A stretch of DNA of 64,000 bases from Guptibacillus hwajinpoensis. GTDB lineage: Bacteria > Bacillota > Bacilli > Bacillales > Guptibacillaceae. The position numbers and the translations under genes are program-made. The first letter of the stretch is position 1, and the number at the start of each line of letters is the position of its first letter. Below are positions 1,391-12,340 of this stretch, one piece after another. Below the pieces are notes generated by a model that was given only the letters and a program-made list of their open reading frames with translations, was not told where the DNA came from and did not search any database. The stretch covers positions 62,001-126,000 of the forward strand of contig NZ_JAIVAE010000008.1 in the NCBI RefSeq assembly GCF_020171785.1. The letters run 5' to 3'.

Positions 1391-1424
1391 AAAAAGCCGT
1401 TTAGTTCACGACTAAACGACTTTC
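1391..1424 (-). terminator. Terminator of the pxp/acc operon
   Basis: An 11-bp stem with one mismatch (1395-1405 with 1411-1421) is followed by a T run on the minus strand. It lies directly after the ycsI stop codon and marks the operon's end. Confidence 0.7.
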
Positions 1425-1429
1425 ACACT

Positions 1430-2185
1430 CTATTCTTCTTGATCCGTAATCAACATATGCCCCGGCGCATGTGTAATCATCATTTCAGGCTTTACGTTTA
1501 AGCCAACATACTGAGGTGTCACGCCGCACGCCCAGAACACAGGGATGCGTTCTTCTTCATCAAAAGGAGGAAATTCTCCGTAGTCTGGTTTTTCAATGTC
1601 CTGAATGCCAATCTCAGATGGGTGCCCAACGTGGATCGGAGCACCGTGCGCGTGTGGGAACTTTGATGTAATGGCAATGGTCTGATCAAGCTCTTCTTTC
1701 CGAATCGCTCTCATGCTGACGACCATATTCCCGTTAAACTGACCCGCTTCTTCGCACGGAATATTTGTTTGATACATTGGCACAACGAGATCCATTTCCT
1801 GGTGAAGTAGACTAATGCCGCGTTCCACAAGCGCTTTTTCAAAAGTAAAACTACATCCTAATAGAAACGTGACATAGTCCTCTTGCCAGACGTCCTTAAG
1901 GTCAAGCGTCTCCTTCTCTAACTCCCCGTTTTTGTAAATGCGGTATTTCGGAAGATCTGTTCGAATGTCTGCATCCGCAATGCGAGGGTTAACCTGACCT
2001 GCTTCAAGGACATCAACGATCGGACACGGCTTCGGATTTCGCTGACAAAATAGGAGAAACTCGAAAGCGTATTTTGAGGGAAGGGTAATCATATTCGCCT
2101 GCAAGTAGCCATCACATACGCCTGATGTTGTCCCGGTCTCAAGATTATCGCGATACTTTCGTCGCTGAGTTTGAGGGGTTACCAT
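1430..2185 (-). CDS. ycsI: DUF1445 / D-glutamate cyclase-like hydro-lyase (YcsI)
   Basis: 251 residues, close to the usual length of the YcsI/DUF1445 family, with the conserved CDGYLQANMITLPSKYAFEFLLFCQRNPKPCP region near the N terminus (about residues 23-54) and GCSFTFEKAL near residue 110. Vertebrate members act as D-glutamate cyclases producing 5-oxo-D-proline, and B. subtilis ycsI also lies in the kip operon, so a role in 5-oxoproline metabolism fits. Its ATG overlaps the accC stop by one base (TAATG), implying translational coupling. It is the last gene of the operon. The exact reaction is inferred. Confidence 0.85.
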   Translation of the reverse strand: MVTPQTQRRKYRDNLETGTTSGVCDGYLQANMITLPSKYAFEFLLFCQRNPKPCPIVDVLEAGQVNPRIADADIRTDLPKYRIYKNGELEKETLDLKDVWQEDYVTFLLGCSFTFEKALVERGISLLHQEMDLVVPMYQTNIPCEEAGQFNGNMVVSMRAIRKEELDQTIAITSKFPHAHGAPIHVGHPSEIGIQDIEKPDYGEFPPFDEEERIPVFWACGVTPQYVGLNVKPEMMITHAPGHMLITDQEE

Positions 2186-3540
2186 TACACCATCTCCTTC
2201 AGTTCATAGATTTCTAGAAACTTTGTATTAAAATCGCCTTCTACAAACTTCTCGTGATGAAATAATCTTTGATGGAATGGAATGGTTGTTTTCACGCCTT
2301 CAATTTTAAATTCACTGAGCGCTCGCTTCATCCGCTGCATGGCTTCTGTTCGAGTTGCGCCGTATGTAATCAGCTTCGCTACCATCGAGTCATAAAATGG
2401 CGGGATGACATAACCAGGATAAACGGCCGAATCCACTCGAACGCCAAAGCCACCTGGAGGGAGATACGTTTCGACTGTTCCAGGTGAAGGCATAAAGCCG
2501 TTATCCGGATCTTCTGCGTTAATGCGACACTCAATCGCCCAACCGCTCATCTCCACTTCCTCTTGCGTAAGGGATAGCCGTTCGCCGTCAGCTATTTTAA
2601 TCTGTTCTTTAATTAAATCAACACCCGTGACCATTTCAGTGACAGGATGCTCTACCTGAATGCGGGTATTCATTTCCATAAAATAATAGTTTCCATCCTG
2701 GTCATAGATAAATTCGACTGTTCCAGCGCCGGCATAATGAACGGCCTTCGCTGCTCGAACAGCGGCTTCTCCCATTTCCGATCGAATCGATTTTGTTAGG
2801 GCAGGAGATGGGGTTTCCTCGACAAGCTTCTGCATCCGTCTTTGAATCGAGCAGTCGCGTTCTCCAAGATGAATCACATTTCCATAAAGGTCCGCTAGAA
2901 CTTGAATTTCAATATGACGAAACTCTTCGATAAACTTTTCTATATATACCCCGGGATTTCCGAATGCCTTTTCCGCTTCCTGCTGGGTCATGTTAATCGC
3001 TTTAATTAGTTCCTCTTCTTCTCTTACAACGCGGATTCCCTTACCGCCACCGCCTGCTGTTGCTTTAATAATGACAGGGAATCCAATTTCGTTCGCAAGC
3101 TCAAGCGCTTCTTCTTTACTTGAAATAATACCTTTCGAACCTGGAACGACCGGGACATTCGCATCCTGCATCGTCTTTCTTGCGACATCCTTGATTCCCA
3201 TTTGACGAATCGATTCTTTGCTTGGACCGATAAACGCAATATTACAATCCTCACACATCTCAGCGAAATCAGCATTTTCAGCAAGAAACCCATAGCCAGG
3301 ATGAATGGCATCAACACCACTATTCGTAGCAACCGTCATGATATTCCCTACGTTTAAATAGCTATCACTAGACGAAGTAGGACCGATACAATAACGTTCA
3401 TCCGCTAATTGCACATGCAAGGCATCACGATCCGCTTCAGAATAAACGGCGACAGCGGTTAAATCCAGCTCATGACAGGCGCGAATAATACGTACAGCAA
3501 TTTCACCGCGATTTGCGATTAGTACTTTTTTGATTCCCAT
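2185..3540 (-). CDS. accC: Biotin carboxylase subunit (AccC family)
   Basis: 451 residues, full AccC length. It has the N-terminal Rossmann start [19 protein letters not shown], the ATP-grasp glycine loop [10 protein letters not shown] (about residue 162), and the catalytic [13 protein letters not shown] block (about residue 290). The enzyme carboxylates the biotin of a carrier protein using ATP and bicarbonate. It sits 11 bp after accB within a 5-oxoproline operon and no acetyl-CoA carboxyltransferase gene is nearby. It is therefore probably a paralogue dedicated to this pathway; see the finding on the urea-carboxylase-like set. The ATG follows AGGAGGGAATGAG. Confidence 0.93.
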
Positions 3541-3551
3541 CTCATTCCCTC

Positions 3552-4019
3552 CTATGCTGGTTTTACAGTAAAGAGCGGCTGGCCAAATTCAACAAGATCT
3601 CCGTTTTCCACTAAAATTTCAGTGATTTCACCGTTCACATCTGCGTGCACATCATTAAACATTTTCATTGCTTCAAGACAACAAACGACCGTTTCTTCCT
3701 TCACCGCATCTCCTACTTGAATAAAGGCTGGATCATCCGGAGAAGGAGATGAATAGAACATACCAACCATAGGGGCTTTTACCGTGTATGATTCTTGCGT
3801 TTCCTGTGCGTCATCCGCCTCAGAAATCAGATCCTCCTGTCCTCGCTCTGCAACAGCGGTTGGAACCTGCGCTTTCGCTTCCTGAGGTTCGCTTTTCTCA
3901 CTCTCCGGATTTTGATTTTTCACCTTAACGACAAAGCTATCATGCTCGTAATGGACTTCATCAACTGTTGACCCATCGACATATTTAATAATCTCAATGA
4001 TTTCTTTTGAACTTAACAT
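3552..4019 (-). CDS. accB: Biotin carboxyl carrier protein (AccB family)
   Basis: 155 residues, typical for BCCP. An N-terminal helical segment (1-35) is followed by an acidic, Gln/Glu/Ala-rich linker (about 36-78). The biotinyl domain follows, with the biotinylation motif EAMKM, Lys119 being the biotin-accepting residue. It would shuttle carboxybiotin between the neighbouring AccC and a carboxyltransferase. The start follows GGGAGG. The gene lies 14 bp after pxpC, which fits partnership with the KipA/KipI-type proteins. The window also contains BirA-controlled bioB. Confidence 0.93.
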
Positions 4020-4033
4020 GCTGTGTCCTCCCT

Positions 4034-4984
4034 TTATCTCACAGATACTTTTTCTAACGTTCGAAGAAAACGATCATTCGTTTCAAACACTTCCTGTGCT
4101 TGTTCCACGGTTACTTCACGAAAGTGGATCGTACAGCCTGGCATCGCTTGCGCTAAGTATGGAATATCGCTTGAAATCACCGTGGCAATGCGCGTATAAC
4201 CGCCTGTTGTTTGCCGGTCTGACATCAAAATAATCGGATCGCCATTCGCCGGAACCTGAATCCCGCCAAGCGGAATCGCTTCTGAAATAATATCAGCAGA
4301 CGTTGCGTGCTCCACCTTCTCCCCTTTTAAGCGAAAGCCCATTCGATCGGACTGAGGCGTTACCTCATATGGAGTTGAAAGGAATGTTTGAATCCCCTCC
4401 TCCGTAAATGCATGCTCGTGTGGTCCAAGTACGACACGGATCGTTAATTCTTTTTCATAGACTGGTATTTCGTCTGGATGCAGGGCTCGCCCACTGATTC
4501 CGTCTATTTTTCCTGACGTATGAAGCACATCGCCTTTTTCAAGCGCTCGTCCTTCGACCCCACCAATTCCTGCTTTCAAATACGTCGACTTACTTCCCAT
4601 CACAAGGGGTACATCATAACCACCCGCTAGACTAATATACGAACGAGCACCAGAGAGAGGCTGACCAAACTCTAGTCGATCGCCTTTCTTTAGAGTGAAA
4701 CTTTTCCACATCGGTGCTTTTTCTCCGTTCACTTTTGGTGAAAGATTGCCACCGCAAATGGCAATGACAGCATCATCAAGAACCTTGAAGGCTGGCCCCA
4801 TAACAGTTATTTCAAGTACGGCTTCATTTCCTTTGTTACCTACGAGGAAATTCGCCACATTCATTGAAAAAGGATCCATTGCACCTGATACGACAATTCC
4901 GTATTGTTGGTACCCTTTTCTTCCACTATCCTGGATTGTCGAAAGCAACCCAGATTTTCGAACTTTAAAAATTGGTTTAGACAT
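4034..4984 (-). CDS. pxpC: 5-oxoprolinase subunit C (KipA / AHS2 family)
   Basis: 316 residues, the normal KipA length. It shows the family opening IFKVRKSGLLSTIQDSGRKGYQQYGI (residues 4-29) and the ILMSDRQTTGGYTRIATVISSD block near residue 255. PxpB and PxpC together with PxpA catalyse ATP-dependent opening of 5-oxoproline to glutamate in bacteria. The same fold pair (AHS1 and AHS2) forms the carboxyltransferase region of urea carboxylase. In B. subtilis KipA also counteracts the kinase inhibitor KipI. Its ATG overlaps the end of pxpA by 8 bp. Confidence 0.92.
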   Translation of the reverse strand: MSKPIFKVRKSGLLSTIQDSGRKGYQQYGIVVSGAMDPFSMNVANFLVGNKGNEAVLEITVMGPAFKVLDDAVIAICGGNLSPKVNGEKAPMWKSFTLKKGDRLEFGQPLSGARSYISLAGGYDVPLVMGSKSTYLKAGIGGVEGRALEKGDVLHTSGKIDGISGRALHPDEIPVYEKELTIRVVLGPHEHAFTEEGIQTFLSTPYEVTPQSDRMGFRLKGEKVEHATSADIISEAIPLGGIQVPANGDPIILMSDRQTTGGYTRIATVISSDIPYLAQAMPGCTIHFREVTVEQAQEVFETNDRFLRTLEKVSVR

Positions 4985-5750
4985 TGGCGTTCACTCCAAC
5001 CCGTTGAATACGAATACCCTCATTCATAAGGCGCTCCCTTAACTGTTGGACAAACTTCAGGGCTTCAGGCTCATCTCCATGTACGCAAATCGTATCGGCT
5101 TGAATGGCAACGTCTTCTCCATTTACGGTTTTTACCTGCTGCTCATTGATCATGCGAATGACACGATCAACCGCTTGATCGGCATTGTGAATCATGGCGT
5201 TCGGTTCTGAGCGTGGGGTTAGGGTACCGTCAGGCTGATATGTGCGATCTGCGAAAACTTCCTGTGCAACCGTTAGTCCACGCTCTCGTCCTGCCTTAAT
5301 CAATTCACTCCCTGCTAAACCATATAAAATTAACTCTGAATCCACCGCGTAGACAGCGTTTGCAATCGCTTTTGCAATGGCTGGATCTTTTGCTGCCAGA
5401 TTATAAAGAGCTCCGTGCGGTTTCACGTGATGAACTTTTGTTTGGTGAACATTCGCAATACCTTGGATCGCTCCAATCTGATAAGCAACAAGGTTGAACA
5501 CCTCATTAGAAGATAGCTTCATCTCACGCCTGCCGAATCCTCCGAGGTCAGGAAATCCCGGATGTGCACCAATGCTAACGCCAAGCTCTTTCGCTAGTGC
5601 CACTGTCTTCATCATGACATTGTGGTCGCCTGCATGATAACCGCAGGCAATGTTCGCTGATGAAATAAACTCGAGTACATTCTCATCATTTCCAATCTTG
5701 TAAGCTCCAAAGCTTTCTCCTAAGTCGCTATTTAAATCAACCGACTTCAT
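4977..5750 (-). CDS. pxpA: 5-oxoprolinase subunit A (LamB/YcsF family)
   Basis: 257 residues from the ATG at 5750. This start is preferred over the GTG at 5756 because AAGGTGA lies 6 bp before the ATG and would overlap the GTG. Family motifs are the N-terminal VDLNSDLGESFGAYKIGND, NIACGYHAGDH, IGAHPGFPDLGGFGRR and VKPHGALYN. PxpA is the TIM-barrel-like subunit required, with PxpB and PxpC, for ATP-dependent hydrolysis of 5-oxoproline to L-glutamate. The gene overlaps both neighbours, indicating coupled translation. Confidence 0.93.
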   Translation of the reverse strand: MKSVDLNSDLGESFGAYKIGNDENVLEFISSANIACGYHAGDHNVMMKTVALAKELGVSIGAHPGFPDLGGFGRREMKLSSNEVFNLVAYQIGAIQGIANVHQTKVHHVKPHGALYNLAAKDPAIAKAIANAVYAVDSELILYGLAGSELIKAGRERGLTVAQEVFADRTYQPDGTLTPRSEPNAMIHNADQAVDRVIRMINEQQVKTVNGEDVAIQADTICVHGDEPEALKFVQQLRERLMNEGIRIQRVGVNANV

Positions 5751-6483
5751 GAACACTCACCTTCTTTTCTTCGGTTTCGACTTTATACTCTCCACGTTTG
5801 ATTGATTCTTTTATGTTTAAAAACTCTTCTTTACTAATCGGAACAAACCGCAAATAATGACCTGACTCGAGCAAAATCGGTCGCTCTCCTGTTGGGTCAT
5901 ATAGTTTCACAGGGGTTTGCCCAATAAGCTGCCAGCCACCTGGTGATTCTAACGGATAAACCCCCGTTTGAGCTCCAGCAATACCAACAGATCCAGGCTC
6001 TATCTCAGCACGTGGATTTTCACGTCTTGGCGTTGCGATTTCTTCTGACATCCCTCCTAAATAAGGAAACCCGGGAACAAAGCCCATCATGTAAATGAGG
6101 TAATCTTTATTTGCGTGAATTGAGATCACTTCTTCTTTACTCAATCCATTATGCTCCGCTACAAACTCTAAATCGGATCCTACTTCATCCCCATAATAGG
6201 TTGGGATGATATAAACAAGAGAAGCAGATTCTGCTTCTCTTCCATGTTGTTGTTCGTCTAACTCTTCTAGCTTTTGTTTTAATGCGTTGAAAGAAATTTT
6301 ATTCGGAAGATAATAAATGGTTAACGTGGTATACGCTGGTACCCATTCCACAACACCGTCAATCGGATGTTGCGCTAACTCATCGGCAAACATTCTAATT
6401 CTTCGATTCGTTTCTTCTGAAATCTCGGTCCCAAATACAAGCTGAATACCTGTATCCCCAAGAGGGTAATAATCAAGTTTCAC
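5737..6483 (-). CDS. pxpB: 5-oxoprolinase subunit B (KipI / AHS1 family)
   Basis: About 248 residues from a GTG at 6483. AGGAGG stands 7 bp upstream of this GTG, while an earlier in-frame TTG (6501) would include the ribosome site in the coding sequence. KipI hallmarks are DYYPLGDTGIQLVFG at the start and the MGFVPGFPYLGGM and RENPRAEIEPGSVGIAGAQTGVYPLESPGGW blocks. With PxpC it forms the ATP-binding complex of 5-oxoprolinase. In B. subtilis KipI also inhibits the sporulation kinase KinA, so a second signalling role is possible. It lies 18 bp after the transporter gene. Confidence 0.92.
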   Translation of the reverse strand: MKLDYYPLGDTGIQLVFGTEISEETNRRIRMFADELAQHPIDGVVEWVPAYTTLTIYYLPNKISFNALKQKLEELDEQQHGREAESASLVYIIPTYYGDEVGSDLEFVAEHNGLSKEEVISIHANKDYLIYMMGFVPGFPYLGGMSEEIATPRRENPRAEIEPGSVGIAGAQTGVYPLESPGGWQLIGQTPVKLYDPTGERPILLESGHYLRFVPISKEEFLNIKESIKRGEYKVETEEKKVSVHEVG

Positions 6484-6501
6484 ACATGTTCCTCCTAACA
6501 A

Positions 6502-7731
6502 TTAAGAAAAAAGCTGTGGCACTTTATCAATTAGCGTCACGATGGCTAGATAGGCAGTAATAAGGAAGACAAACCCGCCAAAGATCGTGAGCCATAGTGG
6601 GTGTTTGTAGTCTCCGACAATGGATTTCTTATACGCCGCTACAAGAAGCGTTCCAAGAGCAACGGGCAAAATCAATCCATTAAAAGCTCCGGCAAGGATC
6701 AGTAACAGAACCGGTTTACCGATAAACGCGAAAATGATGGTTGATACGGCTATAAAACCGATCGTTACACCTGAGTGATGACGATCCACTTTTTTGGATA
6801 ACGTTCTTAGGAACGAAACAGATGTATATGCCGCGCCAACGACTGACGTAATCCCTGCTGCCCAAAGAACAACACCAAACATTTTATAGCCGACAGCTCC
6901 AGCTGCTTGTTGGAAAACAGATGCTGGTGGGTTGGCTGGGTCTAGTTTAAACCCTGTGGCGACAACACCTAATACCGCTAGGAATAAAAACACGCGCATG
7001 ATCGACGCAATGAGAATGCCGGAAACCGAGCTTTTCGTTACCTGATGTAAATTTTCTTTCCCCGAAATACCCGCATCAAGTAAGCGGTGCCCACCAGCAA
7101 ATGTAATATAGCCACCTACTGTTCCACCTACTAGAGTAATGATTGCAAAGACATCGATTTTATCTGGTGCGAATGTATGAACAATCGCATCTCCAACTGG
7201 TGGATTACTTTGAAAAGCAACGTACAATGTAAGAAGAATCATGATCCCACCAAGGATTCGTGCGATTTTATCCATCGCTACTCCGGCTTCTTTTGAAAGG
7301 AAAATCCCAATTGTAATAACGCCCGTAATCACTGCACCTATCCGTGGATCAATGCCGAAGAGCACGTTCATACCAAGCCCAGCCCCACCGACATTCCCAA
7401 TGTTAAAAGCTAGTCCGCCAAGTGCTATTGCGAACGCGAGAAAGTATCCAAGACCAGGGACAACCATGTTCGCGATGTCCTGTCCTTTTCGCTTAGAGAC
7501 GGCAATAATACGCCAGATATTCGCTTGTACCCCAATATCTAAAATAATTGACATTAAAATAACAAATCCGAAGCTTGCGAGTAGCTGTTCAGTAAAGACA
7601 GCCGTTTGTGTTAAAAAGCCTGGTCCGATAGCGGATGAGCCCATTAAGAAAGCTGCACCGAGGATAACGCCCCACTTGCTTTTCGTTGGGCCGCCTTCTA
7701 ACTCTGTTGGCTTTTGTTTTTCAATACCCAT
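6502..7731 (-). CDS. ycsG: NRAMP-related transporter (YcsG-like)
   Basis: About 409 residues with roughly eleven hydrophobic segments and the overall NRAMP/APC layout, first gene of the pxp operon. The ATG at 7731 follows AGGGGG; the TTG at 7734 is less well spaced. The metal-binding DPGN motif of true NRAMP helix 1 is replaced by GPGF (in SSAIGPGFLTQ), and no MPH motif is visible in helix 6, where FAGGHRLL occurs instead. It is therefore unlikely to carry divalent metals by the usual mechanism. Uptake of 5-oxoproline or a related organic acid is an inference from the operon. Confidence 0.8.
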   Translation of the reverse strand: MGIEKQKPTELEGGPTKSKWGVILGAAFLMGSSAIGPGFLTQTAVFTEQLLASFGFVILMSIILDIGVQANIWRIIAVSKRKGQDIANMVVPGLGYFLAFAIALGGLAFNIGNVGGAGLGMNVLFGIDPRIGAVITGVITIGIFLSKEAGVAMDKIARILGGIMILLTLYVAFQSNPPVGDAIVHTFAPDKIDVFAIITLVGGTVGGYITFAGGHRLLDAGISGKENLHQVTKSSVSGILIASIMRVFLFLAVLGVVATGFKLDPANPPASVFQQAAGAVGYKMFGVVLWAAGITSVVGAAYTSVSFLRTLSKKVDRHHSGVTIGFIAVSTIIFAFIGKPVLLLILAGAFNGLILPVALGTLLVAAYKKSIVGDYKHPLWLTIFGGFVFLITAYLAIVTLIDKVPQLFS

Positions 7732-7837
7732 CAAATTCCCCCTTTTTCTATATGATTCATTCTTTGCTTGAATCGATGCGTTTTTCTCTTACCTCTACGA
7801 TATCACGTAATTTTCAGATAATTTTATAAGATTCCGC

Positions 7838-7866
7838 ACAAAAAAACCGCCCATTTCGGGCGATTT
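7838..7866 (-). terminator. Terminator of the symporter/two-component operon
   Basis: A short GC-rich stem (7848-7852 with 7858-7862) is followed by seven T on the minus strand, immediately after the response-regulator stop codon. Confidence 0.65.
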
Positions 7867-7869
7867 CGC

Positions 7870-9246
7870 TCATGTAATATCATATTTATCAATTCTGCGC
7901 TGAAGGGCATAGCGGCTTATCCCTAATAACTTACTCGCCTGCGTGATATTCCACCTCGCATCTTGAATGGCTTTCTCGATATATTTCTTTTCGATCGCTT
8001 CAATATGGTCCTCTAATGAAAAGCGATCATCAAAGACGACGTCGTCAACTGATTTAGAACCCTCTACATATCCTTCAACCGGGTTTAGAAAATCAAAGTG
8101 ATAGGCCGCAAGCTCTTTCTCCTGGTGAAGAATCGCGATTCGTTCAATTGTATTTTTCAGTTCCCTGACATTACCAGGCCAATCGTAGCTCACCAAACGC
8201 TTTTTTGCATCACCTCGTAATACCGGTTTTTCCTTTCTCATTTGCTGACAAAACTCATAGAGAAAATGTTCCGTTAGCATCACAATATCATCGCCTCGCT
8301 CGCGCAAAGGCGTTAACTTTACTGGGACGACGTTCAAACGATAGTAGAGATCGGATCGAAACGTCTTCTCTTGAATCATTTCCTCGAGCGATCGATTTGT
8401 GGCGGCAATAACCCGTACATCAATATCAATATCATGAACGCTGCCAATTCGCTTAATTTTTTTATCTTCAAGAAAACGAAGAAGCTTCACTTGGATGTCG
8501 AGTGAAAGGTCTCCAATTTCATCAAGAAACAACGTCCCTCCATCGGCCCACTCCATTAAGCCAACTTTCGGATTCACTTGTTCTGTCACGCTATTTTTTT
8601 CTCGACCGAAAAGCTCAATTTCAATTAAGTCCGCTGGAATGCTGGCACAATTCACCGCAACAAACGGCCCTTCATGACGCTTACTTTGCTGATGGATGCT
8701 TCTTGCAACAAGCTCTTTCCCGGTACCTGTCTCCCCTCGAACTAAAACCGTCGTATCATTACTTTCAGAGATTAAGGAAATTTTATCTTTTAACTCGTGC
8801 ATTTGCTTACTTTCACCGATCATTTGAACAAGTTTCGTTCGTCGCTCTTCCTCTCGATAGCGTTCGACTTCCTTCTCGAGATGGTGCTGTTTAATCCATT
8901 TCTGAAGCGTGATTTTCAGCTCTTCTAACTCAAAAGGCTTTGTTAAATAATCAAAGGCACCTTCTTTAATCGAGCGCACGGCTGTTTTTGCATCACCATA
9001 CGCCGTTAACATCATCACAGCCATTTCTGGATAGCGTTCTCTAAATTCATGTAGCGAGTCTAGCCCGTTTCCATCAGGTAAGCGAATATCTAATAAAAGC
9101 ACGTGGGGACTAAATTCATCGAGCATGCGCCACCCTTCTTCAAGCGTTGCTGCTGCCCTCACATCGTATCCTTCATCTTCTAGAAACATTTGTAGCGTGA
9201 GACGAAGCGTTGTTTCATCATCAATAATGCCTACTTTGACAGCCAC
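7870..9246 (-). CDS. NtrC-type response regulator lacking the GAFTGA motif
   Basis: 458 residues. The receiver domain (1-about 120) has the acidic pocket IIDDE, phosphoacceptor Asp53 in LLLDIRLPDG and Lys103 in YLTKPF. An AAA+ domain follows with Walker A GETGTGKE and Walker B GGTLFLDEIGDL. A Fis-type helix-turn-helix NITQASKLLGISRYALQRRI ends the protein. The loop that normally reads GAFTGA and touches sigma-54 is NSVTEQ here (218-223, within ELFGREKNSVTEQ), so activation through sigma-54 is doubtful. The start is GTG behind GGAGGAG. It follows the kinase gene by zero bases and is its likely partner. Confidence 0.93.
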   Translation of the reverse strand: MAVKVGIIDDETTLRLTLQMFLEDEGYDVRAAATLEEGWRMLDEFSPHVLLLDIRLPDGNGLDSLHEFRERYPEMAVMMLTAYGDAKTAVRSIKEGAFDYLTKPFELEELKITLQKWIKQHHLEKEVERYREEERRTKLVQMIGESKQMHELKDKISLISESNDTTVLVRGETGTGKELVARSIHQQSKRHEGPFVAVNCASIPADLIEIELFGREKNSVTEQVNPKVGLMEWADGGTLFLDEIGDLSLDIQVKLLRFLEDKKIKRIGSVHDIDIDVRVIAATNRSLEEMIQEKTFRSDLYYRLNVVPVKLTPLRERGDDIVMLTEHFLYEFCQQMRKEKPVLRGDAKKRLVSYDWPGNVRELKNTIERIAILHQEKELAAYHFDFLNPVEGYVEGSKSVDDVVFDDRFSLEDHIEAIEKKYIEKAIQDARWNITQASKLLGISRYALQRRIDKYDIT

Positions 9247-10932
9247 TTATTTCTCCTCCCTTCCTGTTGGAAATGTGATCGAAAACTCCGTCCCTTTTCC
9301 AAGGATACTCTTTACATCAATTTCCCCATTGTTTTGAACGACTAACTGATGAACGATTGATAGCCCAAGGCCCGTTCCTTCTGCACGCGTTGTATAAAAC
9401 GGATCAAAAATTTTCTCCATGACCGTATCCTCCATTCCAACACCCGTGTCAGCTATCATAATCGTTACGTCACTTTCTCGTTGAAAACTTGACAGAATCA
9501 GTTCTCCGCCCTCTGGCATCGCGTTTATCCCATTTAGGATAAGATTTAATAGAATCTGCCGGAGGTGATCACGATCCACGTAAACTTCTGTATCGTTTTC
9601 GAAATGATGAAGGACCACATTTTTTTCATTCGCGATCGTTTTCATGAGCAAGACAAGTGAGTTTAGAGTATCGTCAACTTTTAACAAAGAAGGATTTGTT
9701 TCCATTGGCCTTGAAAACTGTAGAATATTGGTGATGATCTTATTCACACGATCAATGTCCAGCAGCATATTTTCTGTTAATGTAAGCTGATCCTTTGTTA
9801 GCTCAAGCCTGCGTGTTAATAATTCCGTCGTTGTTTTAATTCCTGCGAGTGGGTTTCTAATTTCATGGGCAATACCTGAAGCCATCTCACCTAATGAGGC
9901 CAGACGCGACATTCTTTCCACGCGCTGCTCTAATTTTCGTCGATGCGTGATATCTTCAAAAGTAATAATGGAACGCTGCTTTTCTGACGTTCCGAGTACT
10001 TTATAGCTCACCGCATAAAAAACTTTCTCTTCCTTCCGCTTATGATCCCAAATTTCCTCACTTCTTCTTTTCGTTTCATGAATCGTTAGCTTACCAAGTC
10101 GTTCCTTTAATAGCGGATCTTCGTTCATCATCGTCTGAGCCGCTTCATTATAAACAGAATCAGCGCCTTCAATCACAAGCACCATGCCAACATGAACGCT
10201 ATTTAAAATTGTTTCATTCAACTTCTTAATTTTATCGATTTGAGCGTTCCGTTCATCAAGCGTTTCAACCATATCCTTCAACGACGATGACAAAACCCCG
10301 ATCTCATCTTTTCGGTTATCGTTCATCTCCATGCCTTTTGTTCTCTCGCCTAGCGCGATTCGCTTACAGAAAGCAGCTAAATTCTTAATTGGCTTTGAAA
10401 GATGATAAGCAAGAATAATCGTAATTTGAACGGCAATTACACCAGTAAAAATGCTGATGAGAAGGGTGTATTTTTGAATATTAGGAAGTGAACCTGAATA
10501 AAAGGAAAAGGACATTGGCTGGTAAAGCGTCCAATTCCACTGCTCGATTTGTTCTGTGAGTACTGTGTTTTCGGTAAAAAAGCTCGTTTTCGCTTCGCCA
10601 TTGTACCAATCAAGTTCACTTGATTGAACAACTTCTCCTTCAGATGAAAGAGTGCCATCTGCTTCTTCCACGTACAAACCGTTCGTTTCATCGATCATGA
10701 TCTTGATCAGCGATTTGGCTTCTTCTTCGACCATATCTCCACTTTTCACACGATCATCAAGCTTCGCCGCATACCGACCAAGACTCGTTAAGTGTTCTTG
10801 AGCCGTCGCCTGCTTTAACTGCTTTTCTGACTGATAACTTGACCACATGGAAACGGCACCTATAATAAAAATCGGCACGAGTACAATAATTAAGAAAGGC
10901 ACTAATATTTTTCGTTCAATGGAGTGACGCAT
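9247..10932 (-). CDS. Membrane sensor histidine kinase (HAMP-PAS-HisKA-HATPase)
   Basis: About 561 residues from the ATG at 10932, which follows AAGGGGG; the upstream ATG at 10950 contains that ribosome site. A transmembrane helix at the N terminus and a second near residue 165 enclose an extracytoplasmic sensor region. HAMP and PAS-like segments follow, then HisKA with the phosphoacceptor in SGIAHEIRNPL and the ATPase motifs DTGVGM and TGLGLSIV. It overlaps the symporter gene by 17 bp and abuts the regulator gene, so symporter, kinase and regulator are probably co-expressed. The ligand is unknown. Confidence 0.92.
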   Translation of the reverse strand: MRHSIERKILVPFLIIVLVPIFIIGAVSMWSSYQSEKQLKQATAQEHLTSLGRYAAKLDDRVKSGDMVEEEAKSLIKIMIDETNGLYVEEADGTLSSEGEVVQSSELDWYNGEAKTSFFTENTVLTEQIEQWNWTLYQPMSFSFYSGSLPNIQKYTLLISIFTGVIAVQITIILAYHLSKPIKNLAAFCKRIALGERTKGMEMNDNRKDEIGVLSSSLKDMVETLDERNAQIDKIKKLNETILNSVHVGMVLVIEGADSVYNEAAQTMMNEDPLLKERLGKLTIHETKRRSEEIWDHKRKEEKVFYAVSYKVLGTSEKQRSIITFEDITHRRKLEQRVERMSRLASLGEMASGIAHEIRNPLAGIKTTTELLTRRLELTKDQLTLTENMLLDIDRVNKIITNILQFSRPMETNPSLLKVDDTLNSLVLLMKTIANEKNVVLHHFENDTEVYVDRDHLRQILLNLILNGINAMPEGGELILSSFQRESDVTIMIADTGVGMEDTVMEKIFDPFYTTRAEGTGLGLSIVHQLVVQNNGEIDVKSILGKGTEFSITFPTGREEK

Positions 10933-12340
10933 CTGATCGCCCCCTTCCATTTAGAAAGAAAAGAATGCCTGCTACCAGAAGCGAAGGGAGAACGGGGTGA
11001 AAAACTGGCTGCAGCTCATTCGGAATAAGAAGAAAAGCCAGTACATACGTGATCACTCCTCCAAAAGTAGAAAGAAGTGCATGACGATGACGGACGTTCG
11101 TATAAAGTCCTCCATATAGCGGAAAGAACAAGGACACCGCAATAATCCCCCATATGTGGCCACTAAATTGGACTATTCCCTGCGGTGGTGTAAAAGCAAT
11201 GACAAGAGAAAAGGTCGCAAAGATAAAAATCATCCATCGCGTCCAGGAAATCACTTTGAGATCAACGGCATCCTTTTTCTGTATAGGGAGCGTGATATCA
11301 TAGACAAAGCTCGTCGCCATGATCAACAGCTGTGAATTTGCTGTTGAAATGGCAGCTGCGACTACGCTAATTAACAGCACGCCTTTTAACGGTGTTTCGA
11401 GTAGGTAAGCAATAATGAACGGATAGATTTCATCCGTACTCCTGAATGGAACGCTAGGGTCAAGCACACGTGACCCAATTCCAATCACAAAAATAGAAAA
11501 ATAGATGAGGACAAGAAAAACAGTACTGGTGCCAACCATTTTTAGCGCAACCTGTTTCGAGCGCGCGGAAAGAATACGAACCGCGTATTGCGGGTTCGCC
11601 GCAACGCCAAGTCCGAGCGAAAAGAATGCACTTAACAACGCCCAAAAAGATAAGCCACCTTCAGGAAACAGCGCCAAATAAGATGTGGATCCATTTCGGT
11701 CTAAAGCTGAAAGACCACTCGTGATTTCTCCAAACCCGCCAATTTCTCCAACAATAAAAACGGCACCTAGAATAGTTCCAAAGAAAATTAAGCAAAAGTG
11801 AAAAATATCGGTTCGTGCTACAGAGTGAAGACCACCAAACGTCGTATAGAGAACGAAAAGATAAATTAAAAACACACTAACCGTATAAGGAATTTCAAGC
11901 ATCTGGCTAACAACAATCCCGAACCCTCGAATTTGAATCACAACATAGAGAAGGTAGCTCACACTCAGAATGATGCCGACCCAAATTTGAAGAAGCTTTG
12001 AATCATAGCGCACGAGAAAAAATTCCGGAACGGTGACCACGTTATATGTATAAAGTTTAGAAGCAAGAAAAAACAAACCTATAAGTCCAAGTAACCAGGC
12101 AATGGCCGTCGTCCAAATAACGGAGACCCCACCCTCATAAATTAATCCCGGCAATCCAAGTAAAGAGGCTGCACTAAACCAGGTTGCACAGAAAGAAGCC
12201 ACACTTGGAAACAAAGGAAGATTTCTTCCTGCTAGAAAATATCCCTTCAATTCATCCGTTTTATCAAAACCATGCTTTCCTAGAATAAGAATGGCAATGG
12301 TGTAAATGAGGAAAACGCTTAAATATAGTAGTTCATCCAA
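10916..12340 (-). CDS. Sodium:solute symporter family (SSS/SLC5) transporter
   Basis: 474 residues with about 13 predicted transmembrane segments. The SSS opening is recognisable: helix 1, then GYFLAGRNLPLFPSVASFCATWFSAASLLGLPG, which includes Na2-site residues. GLGVAANPQYAVRILSARS and AAISTANSQLLIMATSFVYD are further family blocks. It should import an organic solute with sodium. The start is probably TTG at 12340, with GGAGGGGA 6 bp upstream and no in-frame ATG nearby. Overlap with the kinase gene suggests a transporter-coupled sensor, as in CbrA, where an SLC5 domain is fused to a kinase. Confidence 0.9.
   Translation of the reverse strand: MDELLYLSVFLIYTIAILILGKHGFDKTDELKGYFLAGRNLPLFPSVASFCATWFSAASLLGLPGLIYEGGVSVIWTTAIAWLLGLIGLFFLASKLYTYNVVTVPEFFLVRYDSKLLQIWVGIILSVSYLLYVVIQIRGFGIVVSQMLEIPYTVSVFLIYLFVLYTTFGGLHSVARTDIFHFCLIFFGTILGAVFIVGEIGGFGEITSGLSALDRNGSTSYLALFPEGGLSFWALLSAFFSLGLGVAANPQYAVRILSARSKQVALKMVGTSTVFLVLIYFSIFVIGIGSRVLDPSVPFRSTDEIYPFIIAYLLETPLKGVLLISVVAAAISTANSQLLIMATSFVYDITLPIQKKDAVDLKVISWTRWMIFIFATFSLVIAFTPPQGIVQFSGHIWGIIAVSLFFPLYGGLYTNVRHRHALLSTFGGVITYVLAFLLIPNELQPVFHPVLPSLLVAGILFFLNGRGRSDASLH

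Follow-up and report, generated by a model that had tools for sequence, protein, structure and literature searches.

A pxp operon with accB and accC genes in Guptibacillus hwajinpoensis as a candidate biotin-coupled 5-oxoprolinase

Why should genes for a biotin carboxyl carrier protein (BCCP, here AccB) and a biotin carboxylase (BC, here AccC) be placed directly after pxpC in an operon for the prokaryotic 5-oxoprolinase PxpABC? This question is raised by a stretch of 64,000 nucleotides of Guptibacillus hwajinpoensis (contig NZ_JAIVAE010000008.1, positions 62,001 to 126,000), here called the window, whose own numbering is used below. The likeliest reading, to which we give a probability of roughly one half, is that the operon encodes a biotin-coupled prokaryotic 5-oxoprolinase, in which AccBC would supply PxpBC with carboxybiotin to activate the lactam that PxpA opens. 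This reading is partly supported, by an invariant gene block, its repeated assembly, intact motifs, purifying selection and the presence of the block in three genomes without detected accD.

The operon and its recurring pxpC-accB-accC block

The operon is a seven-gene unit on the minus strand, running from 7734 to 1430, and the family of each gene was confirmed by NCBIfam and Pfam profiles. Transcription starts with an NRAMP-type transporter gene of the YcsG/PxpT type (6502..7734, likely start 7731; PF01566 83 bits, Pfam only), followed by pxpB (5737..6501), pxpA (4977..5756) and pxpC (4034..4984). PxpB (KipI), with the CT_C_D fold, scored 216 bits with TIGR00370 (cut-off 146) and 255 bits with PF02682; PxpA (LamB/YcsF) scored 382 bits with NF003814 (cut-off 226) and 355 bits with PF03746; and PxpC (KipA), with the CT_A_B fold, scored 312 bits with TIGR00724 (cut-off 230) and 327 bits with PF02626. 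PxpB and PxpA thus pass the equivalog and subfamily model, respectively, that mark membership of PxpABC 5-oxoprolinase. PxpC passes the broader TIGR00724 model and falls below the PxpC equivalog model NF045499 (270 bits, cut-off 500). Next come accB (3552..4019; TIGR00531 144 bits, cut-off 115) and accC (2185..3540; TIGR00514 782 bits, cut-off 626), and the unit closes with ycsI (1430..2185; PF07286 208 bits; NF003969 380 bits, cut-off 324), encoding a member of the D-glutamate cyclase family or putative hydro-lyase. Neighbouring genes overlap by 20, 8 or 1 nucleotides or are set apart by 0, 14 or 11 nucleotides, and the tight, overlapping operon of PxpA, PxpB, PxpC, AccC, AccB and YcsI described in the initial annotation was found complete and confirmed by the profiles.

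The BC catalytic motifs of AccC and the biotinylation motif of AccB are intact, as expected of a biotin-dependent carboxylase. Lys119 of AccB, proposed earlier as the biotin site, is the K of EAMKM in the translation. The AccC motifs ANRGEIA and GGGGKG serve in the handling of ATP and bicarbonate, and were kept in all 20 linked AccC proteins inspected; the biotin motif EAMK was kept in 11/11 linked AccB proteins inspected out of 30 linked. Ratios of non-synonymous to synonymous substitution (dN/dS) between the window and loci L142, L145 and L144 were 0.02–0.21 for accB and accC together and 0.02–0.04 for accC alone (synonymous divergence being saturated for L144), which points to purifying selection.

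Linkage of accBC to pxpC was searched for in several genome samples. In a sample of 299 genomes from the phylum, PxpC-type proteins were found in 91, and 90 neighbourhoods besides that of the window were examined, some of them ending early at contig ends and the set leaving out fragmentary PxpC matches (e.g., G166, G241, G090 and G297); accB and accC were located beside pxpC in two (L062 and L077), and a short carrier in one (L104). Within the class, 186 of 250 genomes contained PxpC-type proteins. In 51 of these 186 genomes, BCCP was encoded directly after PxpC in 21, 20 of which belong to families f136 and f161, inferred, partly from gene order, to be Staphylococcus-like. The BCCP search further covered 80 of 99 intended class genomes; one of the 80 had a full-length BCCP directly after PxpC, and 14 had a short carrier in one gene run with PxpC, genome G458 containing both types. 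In G419, a BCCP gene about 2.3 kb from pxpC on the opposite strand was not counted as linked, and no carrier was present within the 1.5-kb flanks of the 30 best-scoring loci (L111–L140). Among seven loci from the named collection, L141, L142, L144, L145 and L146 were linked, L143 was unlinked and L147 had a short carrier. Surveying accBC next to pxpABC, a check proposed in the initial annotation, thus brought together 30 linked loci with full-length AccB, and all 30 showed the order PxpC-BCCP-AccC on one strand. PxpA is found upstream of PxpB in some of these loci, and in others it lies between PxpB and PxpC or follows AccC; the transporter and YcsI genes also move. The Staphylococcus-like loci L148–L164 are arranged as PxpB-PxpC-BCCP-AccC-PxpA-NRAMP, and L165–L167 likewise with YcsI at the end.

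Phylogenetic trees were built from AccC (20 of the 30 linked rows, 16 rows that we labelled housekeeping, a label that is unsure for G458, and 7 of 10 short-carrier rows) and from PxpC (99 rows, including 20 of the 30 linked and 46 named unlinked ones, with most unlinked rows, and a number of near-identical rows from the short-carrier and Staphylococcus-like groups, omitted). In the AccC tree the lineage of the window (L020, L141, L142, L145 and L144) nests within Bacillus-type AccC of other loci and adjoins a separate AccC of Bacillus taeanensis (L204); a second clade is made up of L062, L077 and L146 (f35/Veillonellales), a third of the Staphylococcus-like loci, and a fourth, distant one of the short-carrier AccC proteins. 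A single clade for all 20 linked AccC used was rejected by the approximately unbiased test (p = 1.2e-9), as was a single AccC clade of the window lineage, L201 and f35/Veillonellales (p = 4e-44). Placing the 20 linked PxpC used in one clade was likewise rejected (p = 9e-65), and in the PxpC tree the linked state changes at least four times among 66 linked and unlinked rows. Since both trees reject single linked clades, a BC/BCCP pair appears to have been recruited to the site after pxpC at least three times. Such repeated building of the block suggests, as far as trees can tell, that the pxp and acc parts work together. That the AccBC of L201 displaced a pair shared with f35 is not claimed; a clade of L201 and f35/Veillonellales was not rejected (p = 0.087).

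Acetyl-CoA carboxylase parts and other possible substrates

The main rival explanation is that AccB and AccC are a plain second half of an acetyl-CoA carboxylase (ACC), sharing only regulation with the pxp genes, serving AccA and AccD encoded elsewhere and never touching PxpBC. This was considered unlikely, with several points in its favour. Both proteins pass the ACC equivalog cut-offs. A separate accBC pair is located elsewhere in the genome (C3:557848-559682), whose AccC is 73.8% identical to the linked one, and the linked AccC nests among such proteins. As the initial annotation had pointed out, the operon contains no acetyl-CoA-type carboxyltransferase (CT) gene; a single accD with an adjoining second CT-like gene was found at C9:85255-86804, so that a partner is present in the genome. 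Besides, a further BC with a carrier of 75 amino acids and a pyruvate-carboxylase-sized protein were detected. The rival also agrees with Alkalihalobacillus macyae having lost, or never had, the pair (see below). However, it leaves unexplained at least three placements of separate BC/BCCP pairs directly after pxpC, and the linked AccB is only 41.6% identical to the other copy.

A further point against the ACC-half explanation came from searching for accD at E 1e-20 in 20 hand-chosen genomes, a small sample. It was found in 13, and seven had none at this threshold. Three of the seven (G248, G174 and G543) carry the linked operon, and their sole AccC and sole BCCP over the cut-offs are the linked pair, with one further match each below cut-off. 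The other four (G280, G168, G021 and G544) had no AccC over cut-off (the BCCP search covered G280 and G544); G544 had a pyruvate-carboxylase-sized match, and completeness is not established for G543 and G544. All seven genomes encode one PF01039 protein of 515–539 amino acids adjoining a small carrier of 133–150 amino acids, an arrangement like that of a sodium-pump decarboxylase. This PF01039 CT may pair with the linked AccBC instead.

The arrangement itself is not new, because a six-gene operon of S. aureus under the control of CcpE, containing pxpB, pxpC, pxpA, accB and accC, has been described in print (PMC11315280); in the passages retrieved from that paper, the same five named genes are present as in the window, and the linked accBC are read by its authors as serving fatty-acid synthesis, which is in line with the ACC-half explanation. 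The Staphylococcus-like loci of our samples differ from the window in AccC lineage and gene order. In the part seen of a data set on bicarbonate depletion in S. aureus, there is one AccC row, with changes of 1.2- and 2-fold, which may belong to either copy (PMC11394868). No biotin-dependent 5-oxoprolinase, and no accBC tied to ring opening, appeared among the best literature matches, a search that left subscription journals mostly outside its scope. Fungal lamA as a known biotin enzyme was considered and dropped, as this was not stated in the excerpts of the literature found.

A second possibility is that the linked complex acts as a biotin-dependent carboxylase on a different lactam or on some amide or cyclic compound. 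The genome contains a second pxpB-pxpA-pxpC set without accBC at C4 (L017 7446-9855), just 43–59% identical to the linked set, which would then handle 5-oxoproline, and YcsI, from the D-glutamate cyclase family, may point to D-glutamate or 5-oxo-D-proline. We regard this as quite improbable. Among the Staphylococcus-like genomes, 14 loci of the other PxpC were examined (13 hold second copies, and L182 holds the sole PxpC of G414); PxpB was called at nine of them and PxpA at none, so that the linked set is likely the 5-oxoprolinase there. In addition, no clear substrate-like residue change was found, and the transporter is of the PxpT type linked to 5-oxoproline. According to the excerpts retrieved, the YcsG/PxpT family is needed for 5-oxoproline use in C. 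glutamicum (PMC13274462), and in B. subtilis it is described as importing Mn (PMC10448178).

Canonical PxpABC, urea carboxylase and short-carrier operons

Several findings weigh against a biotin-coupled 5-oxoprolinase: pxp sets in genomes without BC, a close relative without accBC, residues at the CT site, the chains of a deposited structure, and the state of the trees, the AccC tree having long rows (F_L168, F_L164 and others) and the PxpC tree unsettled deep forks. Genome G021 (one contig, 100% complete) encodes the transporter, PxpB, PxpC, PxpA and YcsI (L023), and G168 (90% complete) the transporter, PxpB, PxpC and PxpA (L021), with pxpA interrupted at a contig end; no AccC-like protein was detected in either at E 1e-100. 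The idea that all PxpABC rely on a shared BC was therefore rejected for canonical sets. Moreover, purified B. subtilis PxpABC is said, in work by Niehaus from 2017, to be active without AccBC. Because canonical pxpABC occurs without an AccC-like protein, AccBC is better seen as an add-on than as a universal part of the enzyme. The window operon has three subunits in common with canonical PxpABC (ycsF-kipI-kipA of B. subtilis, ybgJKL of E. coli, pxpTABC of C. glutamicum), and is also alike in transporter family, in the conserved positions of PxpA and in an Arg at the column of urea carboxylase Lys1605. It differs in having accB and accC directly after pxpC, whereas the operons of B. subtilis and C. 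glutamicum are described without them, in agreement with what had been noted earlier for the kip operon of B. subtilis.

By PxpC, the closest named relatives of the window locus are from two Pseudalkalibacillus strains and Bacillus sp. RAR_GA_16 (94% identical), followed by A. macyae (76%) and Bacillus taeanensis (72%). The A. macyae operon (L143) also speaks against the coupled enzyme, as it contains no accBC while its PxpB, PxpA, PxpC and YcsI are 76–81% identical to those of the window. No remnants of accBC were found at this operon, where an interspersed repeat fills the gap (L143 8061-8170). Three more copies of the repeat were observed at 13123-13761 of L143 and one in L261 of the same genome (G540). 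Loss and original absence of accBC would be told apart here only by the PxpC tree, which puts L143 between the linked L144 and the window. One BCCP over cut-off is present elsewhere in the A. macyae genome, and the genome's other pair could stand in for an operon accBC.

Urea carboxylase (UC) consists, like the window operon, of BC, BCCP and a CT whose halves are homologous to PxpC and PxpB, but it is one chain of about 1200 amino acids whereas the operon has separate genes; with the single-chain model TIGR02712 the window parts scored 548, 203, 58 and 40 bits, below the cut-off of 1304. In urea amidolyase of K. lactis, the CT is proposed to use Lys1605 as its general base, and the K1605A mutant retained about a tenth of kcat, as given in the excerpt seen of PMC5770610. 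The Lys1605 column was placed via a PDB sequence alignment. Lys was found in this column in 4/4 urea carboxylases, 17/17 short-carrier PxpB and 10/10 second-pair PxpB of short-carrier loci; by contrast, Arg was present in 30/30 linked PxpB (Arg159 in the window) and in 116/117 unlinked PxpB, the lone exception being L109, whose PxpC groups with the short-carrier family. Having Arg and not Lys, the window PxpB is canonical at this site, which counts against a plain split urea carboxylase. In nine Staphylococcus-like loci (L169–L177), a second PxpB/PxpC pair without PxpA was observed, with His (8) or Tyr (1) in the same column.

Residue comparison with PxpC rows shorter than 250 amino acids excluded revealed 8 PxpB and 37 PxpC positions common to the UC, short-carrier, linked and unlinked rows. 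Linked-specific PxpC residues were sought and not retained: four columns separate linked from unlinked rows, none significantly, there being only four independent pairs. Two PxpB columns distinguish linked from unlinked rows; Asn118 and Gln191 of PxpB are common to UC, short-carrier and linked rows and present in fewer than half of the unlinked ones, in both cases with kinship not accounted for. In PxpA, 32 positions reach a conservation of at least 95% across linked, short-carrier and unlinked rows, and no column separates linked from unlinked. No linked/unlinked residue difference is thus demonstrably independent of kinship.

That PxpB has Arg where the CT has its general base also favours a third explanation, according to which PxpBC phosphorylates 5-oxoproline with ATP, and AccBC binds PxpBC merely as a regulator or bicarbonate sensor. 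The canonical sets that occur where no AccC-like protein was detected agree with this, and phosphorylation of 5-oxoproline by PxpBC is the stated assumption for the canonical enzyme in the passages seen of PMC13274462. We consider this explanation very unlikely, as the BC motifs and the biotin site are intact, which regulation alone would not need.

A meeting of KipI/KipA-type proteins with a BC is suggested by PDB entry 9yx5, presumably a mycobacterial carboxylase. The chains that it names allophanate hydrolase subunits 1 and 2 are homologous to KipI/KipA and carry Arg in the 1605 column. The entry also lists AccA3, which has a carrier domain besides a BC domain that matches AccC. By its chain listing alone, the entry fits KipI/KipA-type proteins meeting a BC in the cell. 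It contains two PCC-beta-type CT chains too (labelled D5a and D4a in 9t97), and because of these the KipI/KipA chains may be secondary members of a larger complex, which lessens its weight for the coupled enzyme. No PxpA chain was found in 9yx5 by sequence, and searching the literature for the codes of five entries of this series gave no relevant match.

A different group of operons, present in several families of the class (L188–L200, L202, L203, L104 and L147), is more UC-like. They combine, in an operon-like series of genes, PxpB-like and PxpC-like proteins with a short BCCP of 72–119 amino acids, measured from stop to stop, and in many cases AccC and PxpA. The order PxpB-PxpC-BCCP was found in 11 of the 14 loci that the 80-genome search contributed, and AccC came next in 9 of the 11; the extra locus L202 also showed PxpB-PxpC-BCCP-AccC, and the recurrence of this order in a distant family speaks for the coupled enzyme. 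In L188, L195 and L196, which had no AccC called, PxpA separates PxpC from the carrier. Over the 15 loci L188–L200, L202 and L203, AccC was present in 10, and a second UC-like pair some kb away also in 10. The PxpB of L189 scored higher with TIGR02712 (124 bits) than with TIGR00370 (69 bits), and the PxpC proteins of the group share a clade with urea carboxylase in the PxpC tree (support 100/99). Compared with the window, the group has Lys and not Arg in the 1605 column, a short carrier and an AccC from another clade; judged by these features, its members would be better candidates for a split urea carboxylase than the window operon. In L189 and L193, a gene for a PrdR-like sigma-54 regulator was seen between the two UC-like pairs, and the L189 operon (3463-9897) adjoins Mo-hydroxylase genes of the CO/xanthine dehydrogenase type. 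L104 (G280, 99% complete) contains a UC-like PxpB/PxpC, PxpA and a carrier of 74 amino acids, with no AccC-like protein in the genome at E 1e-100.

The proposed mechanism and its meaning

The initial annotation had proposed a multi-subunit biotin-dependent carboxylase made of AccC, AccB and PxpB/PxpC. All parts are present, the motifs are intact and the block appears to have been built at least three times, which supports this proposal in part. Its likeness to urea carboxylase does not extend to the catalytic Lys (Arg159 in the window), and a strict need for AccBC is weakened by G021, G168 and A. macyae.

In the mechanism that we propose, AccC would carboxylate the biotin of AccB with ATP and bicarbonate, a reaction known for these families. 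PxpB and PxpC, with the CT fold of urea carboxylase, would take over the carboxyl group and so activate the amide of 5-oxoproline or of a related lactam. PxpA would then open the activated ring by attack of water, and the carbamate would decay to glutamate and CO2. By analogy, this chemistry would copy that of urea carboxylase, in which the amide nitrogen is carboxylated before hydrolysis. AccBC would be an optional addition that takes over or reinforces the activation step of canonical PxpABC. For the caprolactamase CapAB, lactam opening needs ATP and bicarbonate, and its authors weigh three mechanisms, among them that the lactam is carboxylated; CapAB belongs to the hydantoinase/oxoprolinase family, is stated to be unlike PxpABC, and no biotin dependence is mentioned in the passages retrieved (PMC8453981).

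In a wider and more tentative form, PxpB-PxpC-AccB-AccC-PxpA might be a biotin-dependent lactam hydrolase that N-carboxylates 5-oxoproline, and the KipI/KipA fold a general module for carboxylating lactams and amides. Canonical PxpABC might represent this module driven by ATP alone, the present operon (assembled three or more times) the module coupled to an AccBC pair reserved for it, and the Lys-bearing family in the UC clade a version coupled to a short carrier, in many cases together with an AccC of its own.

Upstream of the operon, the stretch 7735..7869 (minus strand) includes a hairpin with a T run (seen by eye at ~7870-7840) and then a block conserved in six genomes. TTATCTGAAAATTAYGTGATATYGTAGA, located within 7735-7869 before the transporter gene, is nearly identical across the six and is a possible promoter or regulator site; no sigma-54 promoter was found in 7735-7869 when up to 2 mismatches were allowed. 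Directly upstream, at 7870-12340, lie genes for a sodium:solute symporter, a histidine kinase and a sigma-54-type response regulator, which are also upstream in all five relatives (L141–L145), the accBC-less A. macyae included. At the 3′ end of ycsI, a terminator-like hairpin (1395..1413, minus strand) was detected by a consensus scan, a weak signal with 9 such sites against 6.5 expected in shuffled sequence. No RNA families were found at the gathering threshold between 1000 and 13000 of the window.

The activation of 5-oxoproline by canonical PxpABC is only assumed in the part seen of the literature (PMC13274462). If a BC can be coupled to PxpBC, activation would proceed by carboxyl transfer, and KipI/KipA, urea carboxylase and 5-oxoprolinase would be united in one mechanism, with the Lys-bearing short-carrier operons as a second, easier test object. 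If this is true, a new class would be added to the biotin-dependent carboxylases, and many pxp-adjacent genes now named as acetyl-CoA carboxylase genes, those of S. aureus included, would be misnamed.

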